From: Bacteroidales bacterium
GTDB taxonomy: Bacteria > Bacteroidota > Bacteroidia > Bacteroidales > UBA7960
Direction of reading: 5' to 3'
DNA: 39,657 nucleotides
Assembly (NCBI GenBank): GCA_007130125.1
Contig: SLSZ01000122.1
Location: 1-39,657 of the forward strand
The position numbers and the translations under genes are program-made. Shown here piece by piece: positions 34,961 to 39,657 of this stretch. The first letter of the stretch is position 1, and each line of letters opens with the position of its first letter. The notes under the pieces were generated by a model. That model was not told the DNA's origin and did no database searches. It saw only the letters and a program-made list of their open reading frames with translations.

Positions 34961-37900
34961 ATGTCTACAGATAAGTTTTATGTTACTCCATTGCGGCAGT
35001 TAATAGAGATTATATTTAAACAGCTTGATGTTAGTGGTGAGGTGTTTAACATTCCCCGGGAGCTTTTTTATTTTAACAAGGGTAATGAGTCATATGTTAG
35101 TGAGCGTTTCGGGCAGGTACTTGAAACACCGATTGGTGTTGCTGCCGGTCCGCACACTCAGCTAAGTCAAAACATTGTTGGCGCATGGCTTACAGGCTCA
35201 AGGTTTATTGAACTTAAGACAATACAAACGCTCGATGAGCTTGAAATAGCAAAACCTTGTATTGATATGCAGGACGAAGGTTATAACTGCGAGTGGTCGC
35301 AGGAGCTAAAAATCGAACAGTCATTCAGCCAGTACCTTGATGCCTGGATACTTATACACATACTTAAGGACAAACTCGGAGTTGGCCGTAAAGATCAGCC
35401 CGGCTTTATTTTCAATATGAGTGTTGGCTATGACCTGGAAGGGATTTTAAAACCTAATGTACAATGGTTTTTTGATAAAATGGCTGATGCTTCGCAAGAG
35501 TTGCAACAAAAGATTGATTCCATAAAAGATATTTACCCAAAGGTTGTGGATTTGAATATCAGCCCGAATCTTTCAGACAATGTCACCTTGTCAACAATGC
35601 ATGGATGCCCGCCCGGCGAAGTTGAAAAAATTGCTCTTTACTTATTACGGGAAAAGAAGCTTCATACCGCTGTAAAGTTTAATCCAACCTTGCTTGGAAA
35701 GAACGAGCTGCATGAGATTTTGGGCAAGTCAGGCTTTGACACCAAAGTTCCGGATCAGGCTTTTGAACACGATCTTAAATATAATGATGCTTTAAAAATC
35801 ATTAGTAACCTGAGAAAAGCTGCAACTGAGAACAATTTGCAATTCAGTTTAAAGCTCACAAACACTCTCGAAAGCATTAATCACAAAGAGGTTTTCCCCT
35901 CAGAGGTTGATATGATGTATAATAGCGGCAGGTCTGTTCATCCGGTTTCGGTTGCTCTTGCCAATAAATTGCAACAAGAGTATAATGGTGAACTTGACAT
36001 TTCTTTTTCCGGCGGAGCTCATGCTTTCAATATTGCGAAACTTGTTTCCTGCGGACTGGCACCGGTCACTGTGTGTACTGATTTGTTGAAGCCCGGAGGC
36101 TATGGTAGACAGCGTCAATATATAGAGGAGATTAATAGTGCATTTTTGCAGGCAGGAGCTAAAAGCGTTGAGGAATTTATAACAAAAACGGCAGGCAAGA
36201 ATGAGAAGTCTTTTAGTGAAAGCATATTGCAAAACCTGAAGAAATATTCTGAAGAAACTATACAAAGCGGATTTTATAAAAAAGAGGATCTTCATGATCC
36301 CAGCATAAAGACAGATCGACCATTGGGATTTTTTGACTGCATATATGCTCCTTGCGAGGATACCTGCTCAACAAACCAGGATATTCCCGGTTACAATTAT
36401 CATGCTTCGAAAGGCAACTTTGAAGAAGCCTCTAAGGTTGTTCTCCAAACAAATCCGTTTCCCCGCACTACCGGTATGATATGCGATCATTTATGCCAGA
36501 CAAAGTGTACAAGGATAAATTATGACAAGCCGGTATTAATAAGAGAGATAAAGCGGTTTATTGCTGAAAGGGCTGCACAGGAATTTCCCGGGCAAATACC
36601 TTCAGAGGTAAAATCAAAAGCTTCCAAAAAAGTGGCCATTATTGGGGCCGGGCCTTCGGGGTTTTCTGCCGCCTACTTCCTTGCTATGGCCGGATTTACG
36701 GTAGAGATTTTTGAAGGGAAGAACAAACACGGCGGAATGGTTTCGGGAGTTATCCCTGCATTTAGGCTTACGGATGAAGCAATAGACGATGATGTGAAAA
36801 GAATAAAAAGGCTTGGAGTGAAAGTTCATTTCGGCGTGGAAGTTAACAAACAAAAGTTTGAAGATTTAAAAAGCAAATTTGATTATGTCTATATAGCTGC
36901 CGGCGCACAGAAGTCAGCCCGTTTGAAAATAGAAGGGATAGATAGCAAAGGAGTCATTGATCCTCTCGAATTACTTGAGAAAGTTAGAAGCGGCACATAT
37001 CCAAATATTGGCAATACTGTTGCTGTAATCGGAGGAGGCAATACAGCTATGGATGTTGCCAGAACAGCTTACAGGCTGGTTGGAAAAAGCGGAAAGGTAA
37101 TTGTCATTTATCGCCGCACTGTGAAGCAGATGCCTGCTGATATAGGTGAGATCAAAGCAGTTATGGAGGAAGGCATAGATGTGATGGAGCTTACGGCTCC
37201 TGTAAAAATAAACACAGAAAAAGGTGCAGTAAAATCTGTTACTTGTAAAAAAATGAAGCTGGGAGATAAAGATGAGAGCGGAAGGCGAAGGCCGGTGGAA
37301 ATATCGGGTTCAGAGTTTGAAGTAAAGGTTGACACTGTTATACCTGCCATAGGCCAGGACATTGTTTTTGATTTTGGCGATGGTAACTCTTTAAAAGCTA
37401 AGGATGACAGTTATGAAACAAACCTAACAAACGTATTTATTGGTGGCGATGCTATGCGTGGGGCGGCCACTGCAATAAAAGCAATTGGAGATGGCAGGAA
37501 AACAGCTCAAATAATTATTGACAGAGAAGGCATTAGGTTTAACACAAAACCTGAAAATAAACGAACAGAACTTAGCAAAACAGAACACCTTCTGACCAGA
37601 GCTAAAAGAGTTTTCCCTGTTGAAAAGAAAGAAAAACCCATTAACAACAGGAAAAACTTTGACCTTATAGCTTCTTCAATTACCGAAAAAGAAGCTGTGG
37701 AAGAAGCAAAAAGATGTTTGCTGTGTGATGAGATATGCAACATATGTACAACGGTATGTCCTAATTTTGCCAACTATTCATACAAGGTTAAACCGGTTGC
37801 TTACAAGTTGAAAAAAGCTGTTAAGCCACCTGAAGGTGATCCTGATCTTATTGATGATGTTGATTTTGAGGTTAAACAGCAATACCAGATTTTAAATATA

Positions 37901-38269
37901 GTCAACTTCTGCAATGAGTGTGGCAACTGTAATACTTTTTGCCCCTCGGCAGGAGCGCCTTATAAAGAAAAACCAAAAGTACACCTGACTGTTGAATCAT
38001 TTAATGACGCACAGGAGGGGTATTACTTTGCAAATCTGCCCGATATAAAGAACCTTATATACAAGAATAACGGCAGTATTAGCACTCTTGGAGATACCGG
38101 AAGTGAGTATGTTTATGATAACGATAATGTTTTTGCACGCTTCAATAAAGAGAATTTTGAAATTAAAGAAATCAAGTTTCTGAATCCCGCCTTAGATAAA
38201 GCTGATTTTAGGGAAGCTGCATTTATGAGTGTTGTTATGAAAGGTGTGGAGGGCTTGGTGTTTGGGTGA
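34961..38269 (+). CDS. ygfK: YgfK-type iron-sulfur flavoprotein (putative selenate reductase subunit)
   Basis: The 1102-residue protein matches YgfK in length and order. Residues about 1-450 resemble the dihydroorotate-dehydrogenase-like barrel (TPIGVAAGPHTQLSQNIV, FNMSVGYDLEGI, LSTMHGCPP). Residues about 455-540 hold a GltD-like Fe-S domain (CIYAPCEDTC; ICDHLCQTKC). The NAD(P)H/FAD reductase part follows: AIIGAGPSGFSAAYF near 560, VAVIGGGNTAMDVARTA near 690, IPAIGQ, VFIGGDAMRGAATAIKAIGDG. Two ferredoxin-like clusters come next: CLLCDEICNICTTVC (about 919) and CNECGNCNTFC (about 984). In E. coli the homologue is tied to selenate reduction and to molybdenum hydroxylases. The last about 93 codons are duplicated downstream at 39076-39356. 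Confidence 0.88.
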   Translation: MSTDKFYVTPLRQLIEIIFKQLDVSGEVFNIPRELFYFNKGNESYVSERFGQVLETPIGVAAGPHTQLSQNIVGAWLTGSRFIELKTIQTLDELEIAKPCIDMQDEGYNCEWSQELKIEQSFSQYLDAWILIHILKDKLGVGRKDQPGFIFNMSVGYDLEGILKPNVQWFFDKMADASQELQQKIDSIKDIYPKVVDLNISPNLSDNVTLSTMHGCPPGEVEKIALYLLREKKLHTAVKFNPTLLGKNELHEILGKSGFDTKVPDQAFEHDLKYNDALKIISNLRKAATENNLQFSLKLTNTLESINHKEVFPSEVDMMYNSGRSVHPVSVALANKLQQEYNGELDISFSGGAHAFNIAKLVSCGLAPVTVCTDLLKPGGYGRQRQYIEEINSAFLQAGAKSVEEFITKTAGKNEKSFSESILQNLKKYSEETIQSGFYKKEDLHDPSIKTDRPLGFFDCIYAPCEDTCSTNQDIPGYNYHASKGNFEEASKVVLQTNPFPRTTGMICDHLCQTKCTRINYDKPVLIREIKRFIAERAAQEFPGQIPSEVKSKASKKVAIIGAGPSGFSAAYFLAMAGFTVEIFEGKNKHGGMVSGVIPAFRLTDEAIDDDVKRIKRLGVKVHFGVEVNKQKFEDLKSKFDYVYIAAGAQKSARLKIEGIDSKGVIDPLELLEKVRSGTYPNIGNTVAVIGGGNTAMDVARTAYRLVGKSGKVIVIYRRTVKQMPADIGEIKAVMEEGIDVMELTAPVKINTEKGAVKSVTCKKMKLGDKDESGRRRPVEISGSEFEVKVDTVIPAIGQDIVFDFGDGNSLKAKDDSYETNLTNVFIGGDAMRGAATAIKAIGDGRKTAQIIIDREGIRFNTKPENKRTELSKTEHLLTRAKRVFPVEKKEKPINNRKNFDLIASSITEKEAVEEAKRCLLCDEICNICTTVCPNFANYSYKVKPVAYKLKKAVKPPEGDPDLIDDVDFEVKQQYQILNIVNFCNECGNCNTFCPSAGAPYKEKPKVHLTVESFNDAQEGYYFANLPDIKNLIYKNNGSISTLGDTGSEYVYDNDNVFARFNKENFEIKEIKFLNPALDKADFREAAFMSVVMKGVEGLVFG
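37989..38269 (+). repeat. Upstream copy of a 281-bp duplicated ygfK 3' end
   Basis: The segment recurs at 39076-39356 with a constant offset of 1087 bp and no indels. Positions 37989-38108 (120 bp) differ from the downstream copy at one base (G38072 vs T39159). Positions 38109-38269 differ at about 23 of 161 positions. This copy ends the intact gene. Confidence 0.95.
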
Positions 38270-38271
38270 TA

Positions 38272-38721
38272 CTATTCTTTTTCCAATCTATTTCTTAGTT
38301 GCACCATTTCTGCTGTCGAAATTACAGATAAATAGCCATTTTCTTTTAGCCCTTTTATGAGTTTTTTATCACCTGTCCAAAGAATAGAATCCATATAATC
38401 ATTTAATGCTACAAACGCAACATCTTTATAATCAACATCCTTTACCAATTTTACGGCTTGTTTAAAATACTTCTCCGGTATCTGTTCTTCATTAACAAAT
38501 AGTATCTCGCTACAAACCAGGTATTCGATCTCAACTAATTCTTTATGTGTTTTTTGTGCCAATTCCATAAGCTTGTACCGGTGAGTTTCAATTTCATTCC
38601 TAAGATAATTGCAACTGTAAAACTTAAACAATTCGCCGGAGTTCAATAACAAATCTCCAATGGTACTATCTGTATTCAGAATGGCACTAAAAACAAGGTT
38701 TGTATCAACTACTATTCTCAT
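38272..38721 (-). CDS. PIN-domain ribonuclease toxin
   Basis: The 149-residue protein is a PIN-fold nuclease, the usual toxin of VapBC-like pairs that cleave RNA. The acidic metal-binding residues are in place: D6 in VVDTN, E43 in RNEIETH, D97/D100 in DVDYKDVAFVAL and D118 in WTGDKKL. The arrangement fits the COG2405/COG1569-type PIN group. The ATG overlaps the antitoxin stop by 4 nt, and the stop is only 2 bp from the ygfK stop on the other strand, so the gene is convergent with ygfK with no room for a terminator. It lies inside a pair of ygfK 3' repeats, so it is likely a later arrival. Confidence 0.87.
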   Translation of the reverse strand: MRIVVDTNLVFSAILNTDSTIGDLLLNSGELFKFYSCNYLRNEIETHRYKLMELAQKTHKELVEIEYLVCSEILFVNEEQIPEKYFKQAVKLVKDVDYKDVAFVALNDYMDSILWTGDKKLIKGLKENGYLSVISTAEMVQLRNRLEKE

Positions 38722-38921
38722 TTTATAAATCTATCCTTGTTCTTTAACCACCAGTTTTTATCGATTTTATTAGCAAGGTAATCAGCATCTTGTTGTTCTA
38801 CCTTTGACCCGGATGTTAATTCTTTGTATCTGATATAGTTGATAAACTTTTGAACACCTTCTATATCTACATTGCCTGGTATCCGAATAACTATTTCCTT
38901 ATCTGTTCTTTCAATAATCAT
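38718..38921 (-). CDS. Antitoxin partner of the PIN toxin
   Basis: The 67-residue protein precedes the PIN gene and overlaps it by 4 nt (ATGA), the standard toxin-antitoxin arrangement. The N-terminal half (IIERTDKEIVIRIPGNVDIEGVQ) reads as a short beta hairpin followed by a helix, as in small DNA-binding or dimerising antitoxins. The C-terminal tail (DADYLANKIDKNWWLKNKDRF) is the kind of segment that wraps into the PIN active site and is frequent in Bacteroidota and Cyanobacteria antitoxins. Assignment rests on position and size; I do not recognise a named family. Confidence 0.8.
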   Translation of the reverse strand: MIIERTDKEIVIRIPGNVDIEGVQKFINYIRYKELTSGSKVEQQDADYLANKIDKNWWLKNKDRFIK

Positions 38922-38938
38922 AACATAATTAGTTTATA

Positions 38939-38946
38939 CAAAGATA
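38939..38946 (-). promoter_or_regulatory. -7 box of the toxin-antitoxin operon
   Basis: On the minus strand this reads TATCTTTG, a perfect TAnnTTTG, 18 bp upstream of the antitoxin ATG. The leader would be only about 10 nt. A TTG lies 14 bp further upstream, closer than the usual 19-21 bp. Confidence 0.5.
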
Positions 38947-39035
38947 GTAATAATATTAATCAATTTTTGTAAGTAAAACTTGATAAGCATTTTGCATCTG
39001 ACGATATTTTAGCGCTTTTCAGCTCCTCACAGCCG

Positions 39036-39049
39036 GCTCCTGCCGGAGC
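39036..39049. repeat. Small GC-rich hairpin GCTCC-TGCC-GGAGC
   Basis: A perfect 5-bp stem with a 4-nt loop, in an unusually GC-rich patch between the toxin-antitoxin promoter and the broken ygfK copy. The patch (about 39021-39058) differs in composition from its surroundings and may be a dispersed repeat or part of an insertion end. Confidence 0.35.
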
Positions 39050-39075
39050 GTTTCGTGTTTACGTATTATCACGTC

Positions 39076-39356
39076 CTGTTGAATCATTTAATGACGCACA
39101 GGAGGGGTATTACTTTGCAAATCTGCCCGATATAAAGAACCTTATATACAAGAATAACTGCAGTATTAGCACTCTTGGAGATACCGGAAGTGAGTTTGTT
39201 TACGAAAACGATAATGTTTTTGCAAGGCTCAACAAAGAAGATTTTGACATTAAAGAAATCAAATTCCTGAATCCCGGTATAGAAACATCTGATTTTAGGG
39301 AAGCTGCAGTTATGAGCGTTATTATGAAAGGTGTGGAGGGTTTGGTGTTTGGATGA
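39076..39356 (+). pseudogene. Truncated second copy of the ygfK 3' end
   Basis: This segment encodes about 93 C-terminal residues of YgfK in frame (VESFNDAQEGYYFANLPDI to GVEGLVFG) and ends with TGA at 39354-39356. It lacks all Fe-S and flavin domains. The frame stays open upstream to about 38973, but no ATG, GTG or TTG start is found in it, so it is almost certainly not expressed. Differences from the intact copy in the last 161 bp give mostly conservative changes (YDNDNV to YENDNV, FNKENFEIKE to LNKEDFDIKE). That suggests it diverged as a functional allele before becoming a remnant. Confidence 0.9.
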
Positions 39357-39395
39357 TGAAAAATTTTAATTAATTTTATTCATAATCATAATAAT

Positions 39396-39407
39396 ATATC
39401 AATAGCC
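39396..39407. repeat. Direct repeat ATATCAATAGCC, copy 1
   Basis: The 12-mer recurs exactly at 39537-39548, 141 bp on, and similarity continues weakly after it (ATTC and following T positions align). In this copy it leads into the UUCG hairpin at 39406-39425; in the second copy the corresponding hairpin is degraded. The 300 bp after 39357 contain no gene. Confidence 0.55.
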
Positions 39408-39425
39408 GAAGCATTCGTGCTACGG
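39406..39425. repeat. REP-like hairpin with TTCG loop
   Basis: CCGAAGCA (39406-39413) pairs with TGCTACGG (39418-39425) with one mismatch around a TTCG tetraloop, a very stable RNA loop type. There is no U-run after it, so it looks like a REP-type element rather than a terminator. Confidence 0.5.
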
Positions 39426-39436
39426 ATTAAATGTTT

Positions 39437-39448
39437 CCCCCCGGGGGG
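39437..39448. repeat. Perfect palindrome CCCCCCGGGGGG
   Basis: Six C followed by six G in a strongly AT-rich stretch. It is self-complementary without a spacer. It could be a junction of an inserted element, a protein site, or a slippage-prone tract. Confidence 0.6.
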
Positions 39449-39466
39449 TATTGTCGGTAAATTATC

Positions 39467-39484
39467 CACCACACAAATGTGGTG
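39467..39484. terminator. Hairpin CACCACA-CAAA-TGTGGTG
   Basis: A perfect 7-bp stem with a 4-nt loop, followed on plus by TCTAATAATTTT. It may end a transcript entering from the left, but no active gene precedes it on that strand apart from the ygfK remnant. It is the third hairpin in 80 bp. Confidence 0.35.
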
Positions 39485-39536
39485 TCTAATAATTTTAAAA
39501 TATAATTTTTTGATGTTGATTTAATTACAATACGTC

Positions 39537-39548
39537 ATATCAATAGCC
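39537..39548. repeat. Direct repeat ATATCAATAGCC, copy 2
   Basis: Exact second copy of the 12-mer at 39396-39407. The sequence after it (ATGGTATTCATTATCTG) resembles the first copy's hairpin at several positions but no longer folds well. Confidence 0.55.
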
Positions 39549-39657
39549 ATGGTATTCATTATCTGTTTTCGTAAAGAAAAAGCAGGGTATAGATTTTAAA
39601 TCTTTATCTCAGTTCCTGTCTTTTTAATTTCAATAACGAAAGGGTTGTTTGAGTTAA

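Follow-up and report, generated by a model that had tools for sequence, protein, structure and literature searches.

The last 282 bp of ygfK, a gene for a putative selenate reductase subunit, occur twice in this stretch of Bacteroidales DNA, on either side of a probable toxin-antitoxin pair, and the two copies are almost identical for 120 bp before they diverge abruptly. We consider it probable that this step in identity, the insert between the copies and the edge at which the second copy begins all arose from a single integration of DNA from a close relative, involving a homologous crossover near position 38108 and an illegitimate joint (37989/39076). The window, the whole stretch of DNA that was analysed (39,657 nucleotides), is an entire contig (C28) of a metagenome-assembled genome (MAG) of 2.82 Mb in 261 contigs. 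The features on which the argument relies are listed here.

34961-38269, + strand: complete ygfK with tail A as its 3' end, encoding the putative selenate reductase subunit YgfK of 1102 aa (open reading frame and TIGR03315)
37989-38108, + strand: block, copy 1 (119/120 identical to 39076-39195)
38109-38270, + strand: tail A, the end of the intact ygfK (23/162 differences from tail B)
38272-38721, - strand: PIN-domain toxin (PIN_2), 149 aa, full length (PF10130)
38718-38921, - strand: probable antitoxin, 67 aa, overlapping the toxin start by 4 bp (open reading frame and gene order)
39027-39076, + strand: interspersed intergenic repeat with core GGCTCCTGCCGGAGCG, 5' half, broken off at ygfK copy 2 (other genomic copies)
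39073-39077, no strand: proposed illegitimate joint, with the repeat ending in CACGTC, a 1 nt overlap (C), then TGTTGAATC of ygfK (from the truncated repeat)
39076-39195, + strand: block, copy 2 (alignment to copy 1)
39196-39357, + strand: tail B, remnant of a second ygfK allele, with an open frame as far as its stop and no separate start codon seen
39388-39560, + strand: downstream intergenic repeats common to the genus (congener and same-genome matches)

The intact YgfK passes the TIGR03315 equivalog cut-off (925.4 vs 835.3 bits). In a direct alignment, positions 37989-38270 match 39076-39357 at an offset of 1087 with zero indels; identity sets in at 37989/39076, and similarity ends at 38270/39357, one base past the ygfK stop codon. 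This 282-bp direct repeat flanks an insert of 805 bp (38271-39075). A sequence-only reading of this DNA had described a two-phase identity without any indel, and our alignment bears this out. The block matches at 119 of 120 positions, in exact runs of 83 nt (37989-38071) and 36 nt (38073-38108), and is followed by 23 differences in the 162 bp of the tail (85.8% identity). The sole difference within the block, G/T at 38072/39159, replaces Gly with Cys in copy 2 and fits either a later mutation or a sequencing error. Block and tail differ in their rates of difference (Fisher p = 2e-5), and the maximum-likelihood change point falls at 38109, with 0 of 2000 permutations equally strong. If the block rate is taken as the rate since duplication, the 23 tail differences have a probability of ~2e-21, or 2e-6 when the upper 95% bound on the block rate is used instead. 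The same reading had contrasted this pattern with a simple tandem duplication; a simple tandem duplication it is not, but neither are the copies adjacent, as the toxin-antitoxin insert lies between them.

We found that copy 2 begins exactly where an interspersed repeat is broken off. The repeat with the core GGCTCCTGCCGGAGCG is present in seven copies in this genome, one in the window and six others (contigs C218, C134, C168, C170 and C188 of G000), and a search of three congeners for the 16-bp core with at most one mismatch found no copy. Other copies extend past the break point, for example with GTCCGTGAGTTTCACACACGGCTATTCACAGG; the copy in the window ends at GTCC, and ygfK follows. Because a repeat of this genome is truncated there with 1 nt of microhomology, we infer that the edge of copy 2 is an illegitimate joint formed in DNA of this species' lineage. 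The repeats further downstream (39388-39560) recur at unrelated intergenic places in two congeners (85% over 121 bp in G003, 78% in G002), and pieces of them are also found on contigs C4, C78 and C35 of this genome. Congener copies (L166, 3640-3800; L167, 4440-4640) adjoin GGGCTAAAGCCC / GGGCTTTAGCCC motifs, possibly terminal inverted repeats.

The joint also bears on whether the arrangement could be a product of assembly from a mixture of strains, in which the final ~580 bp, or else the connection of block to tail, would unite sequences from two naturally separate strains. The contig belongs to a MAG in many pieces, copy 2 lies less than 600 bp from the contig end, and the 83-bp exact repeat could mislead an assembler using short k-mers. 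We nevertheless regard such a chimaera as unlikely, because the overlap at the 39073/39076 junction is only 1 nt, and no k-mer overlap could therefore have created the joint. In addition, neither tail is present on any other contig of the bin, and mispairing at the block would swap which tail belongs to which copy while leaving two alleles and the joint intact.

The insert itself carries two genes. The PIN_2 toxin passes the PF10130 gathering score (81.7 vs 22.4 bits), its full-length relatives reach 57% identity, and it is convergent with ygfK, its stop codon lying 2 bp past that of ygfK. The 67-aa probable antitoxin gave no Pfam or NCBIfam match, and similar small open reading frames are found upstream of related PIN_2 toxins in other Bacteroidales (loci L139, L141, L145 and L150). 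Gene order and this conserved pairing suggest that the two genes are probably a toxin-antitoxin pair. Viral contigs contained no match to the ygfK end or the toxin, and the plasmids searched for the toxin yielded a sole match of 35%. When the surroundings of the pair were inspected by eye for integron-like attC arrays, no second repeat copy was seen on the far side of the toxin in this window. Another PIN_2 gene fragment, truncated where its contig ends, lies elsewhere in the genome (G000:C8:15960-16094; L218).

We propose that a recipient cell carrying ygfK with one 3' end would have taken up a short fragment from another species or a deeply diverged lineage of the genus, in which the alternative 3' end of ygfK was immediately followed by the PIN toxin-antitoxin pair. 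On one side, the fragment would have recombined homologously within ygfK, with the exchange ending near 38108. On the other side, a break inside the intergenic repeat would have been joined to ygfK at 37989 by near-blunt end joining (1 nt overlap). This would leave an intact ygfK ending in tail A, which came from the donor, then the toxin-antitoxin pair and the displaced recipient end (block and tail B), and the 120-bp block would represent the stretch from the illegitimate joint to the crossover. The window contains a homologous-exchange boundary, the sharp switch of alleles at 38108/38109, although a short conversion tract would look alike, and a nonhomologous boundary, the truncated interspersed repeat joined to ygfK. 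The sequence-only reading had mentioned neither the toxin-antitoxin insert nor the joint at 39076, and it is these that would make the step part of one integration event.

The near-identity of the block could be accounted for by two routes. First, both block copies could come from one parent, the recipient, through an exchange between sister chromosomes, in which case nothing further would be needed. Second, the fragment could have been circularised and integrated by a single crossover, with mismatch repair homogenising a short heteroduplex. The second route exposes a point against the one-event account, as a circle and a single crossover predict a block as diverged as the tail unless it was converted. 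Homologues of ComEC and DprA are encoded in the genome, which is compatible with DNA uptake but does not prove it. The species-level genomes searched yielded no empty site, donor allele or closer ygfK; we infer the direction of the exchange, its route of entry and its completion in a single event from what the sequence shows directly, namely the step, the two functional alleles, the truncated repeat and the insert. The same structure could have been built in two steps, with the 3' end of ygfK replaced together with the toxin-antitoxin pair in one strain, and an illegitimate exchange with a tail-B chromosome following later. This sequence of events requires only common processes, and identical blocks would be expected from it, since both strains would have the same ygfK as far as 38108, the edge of the replacement. 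It also needs one event more than the single integration, an extra event that no data demand, and we consider it quite unlikely.

A single integration between two lineages implies that the tails are alleles of different origin, and their present state is informative on this point. Both tails hold the reading frame to the stop codon, and against a profile built from 54 homologous YgfK C-termini, tail A scores 44.1 bits and tail B 45.9 bits. When 23 substitutions were placed at random, a stop was gained in 40-46% of trials, and 0 of 400 trials per direction attained the observed profile score. Between the tails, dN is 0.107 and dS is 0.416. Because the tails fit the profile equally well and random decay never matched that fit, their divergence is older than the duplication and than the reduction of copy 2 to a remnant, and both were functional alleles until recently. 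The profile simulation rules out neutral decay of copy 2 as the origin of the tail differences. Two earlier suggestions are thereby strengthened: that both tails had once been functional, and, with the synonymous sites described below in agreement, that two distinct alleles met near 38108/39195, either through crossing over or through conversion of a short tract.

The same results weigh against a scenario in which the 282-bp end was duplicated in full around the toxin-antitoxin insert at an earlier date and diverged evenly, until gene conversion recently made just the first 120 bp alike. Such a history would yield the same two-phase pattern, and the block does sit at one edge of the repeat. 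However, a copy 2 without a start codon would be expected to decay freely, yet tail B fits the family at least as well as tail A does and is the nearer of the two to 33 of the 54 homologues (tail A is nearer to 10), a fit that random decay fails to produce. We therefore hold this history to be very unlikely. That the step merely reflects stronger protein constraint on the block than on the tail is next to impossible: although the block is somewhat better conserved among homologues, synonymous sites show the same step (differences at 0 of 25.1 sites in the block and 10 of 32.3 in the tail), which rules out selection on the protein as its cause.

In phylogenetic trees, tails A and B pair with each other (support 0.83 for the tail and 0.97 for the block). 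Their next relatives are ~40-50% identical in the tail region. The relatives of this YgfK are mostly from Bacteroidales-type MAGs, and the nearest of them reaches only 55-59% protein identity. The sequence-only reading had looked to such trees to tell which tail is native; the pairing was recovered, but because the tails pair mutually and every other relative is so distant, naming the local tail is beyond the reach of the tree. That reading had also held that its two-allele account would be contradicted if the tails were mutual closest relatives with the same divergence as the block. They are indeed mutual closest relatives, but their divergence is far above that of the block.

The genes neighbouring ygfK are 66-76% identical in nucleotide sequence to their counterparts in same-genus genomes, mostly 73-76%. 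Because the tails (86%) differ less than this and pair in the tree, the donor of the second allele is apparently a close, unsampled relative. We found no close YgfK in three sampled congeners, though the neighbouring genes occur there; ygfK has therefore either been lost in these congeners (or missed in their drafts) or been gained here.

We also compared this locus with 67 related PIN_2 loci in other Bacteroidales (L131-L160 and L187-L225). Direct repeats lie on both sides within ~1.5 kb at 16 of the 67. Among control windows the figures are 19 of 352 for overlapping windows from the same genomes and 3 of 363 for windows placed around ygfK in different genomes. Most of these repeats are interspersed intergenic repeats (for instance at L145, L201, L214 and L223). 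Other loci include L191, with a 147-bp repeat pair whose last 41 bp match exactly and whose remainder has diverged; L139, with a 62-bp pair at 97% that lies inside an open frame at one end; and L141, with a 260-bp pair at 91%. Because toxin pairs sit in repeat-rich intergenic DNA, the enrichment is suggestive only, and as most of the repeats are interspersed, we set it aside as evidence for a dedicated mobility mechanism. It seems very doubtful that the PIN-type toxin-antitoxin pairs of Bacteroidales routinely spread by using the end of a neighbouring gene as a homology handle, leaving two-phase duplicated ends behind.

The duplicated ygfK end is better viewed as a well-preserved scar of a known and ordinary kind of bacterial recombination, resolved here to the single base, and it leaves general understanding unchanged. 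Its value is that one gene acquisition would be legible in it, with allele divergence marking the crossover and the truncated repeat marking the illegitimate joint, and that it shows a toxin-antitoxin pair settling behind a metabolic gene without disrupting it. In Helicobacter pylori, restriction-modification genes are inserted with long target duplications (Nobusato et al. 2000, as cited in PMC1643837). Those insertions resemble the present case in placing an addiction-type gene pair between long direct repeats of the target; they differ in that part of the ygfK repeat has diverged as a second allele, so that this is no pure target duplication. Both copies should come from the target in a long target duplication, but with 23 differences in 162 bp and both tails functional, one tail must stem from another allele.

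The same kind of recombination has been proposed for the displaced 3' ends seen in the T6SS immunity arrays and orphan Rhs tips of Vibrio cholerae (PMC5361080). There, as here, the old end gives way to a new 3' end and a small gene next to it, and is shifted downstream. Unlike those genes, ygfK encodes a metabolic oxidoreductase without a toxin tip or immunity gene, and its two tails are 86% alike, so that no new specificity is acquired. In pneumococcus, transformation induces merodiploids via exchange between sister chromosomes (PMC3784515), the type of exchange invoked in the first of our two routes to identical blocks. The closest parallel to the whole structure is the E. coli conjugation test for homology-facilitated illegitimate recombination. 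Its main product had 109-950 bp at the end of the homologous gene duplicated, which was explained by a single crossover of a circular molecule missing part of the homologous segment (PMC3240628). The ygfK locus shares with this by-product a homologous crossover in a gene end, an illegitimate joint, foreign DNA in between and a duplication of ~100-1000 bp. It differs in that the event is reconstructed from a natural genome, and in that the diverged alleles make the crossover visible.
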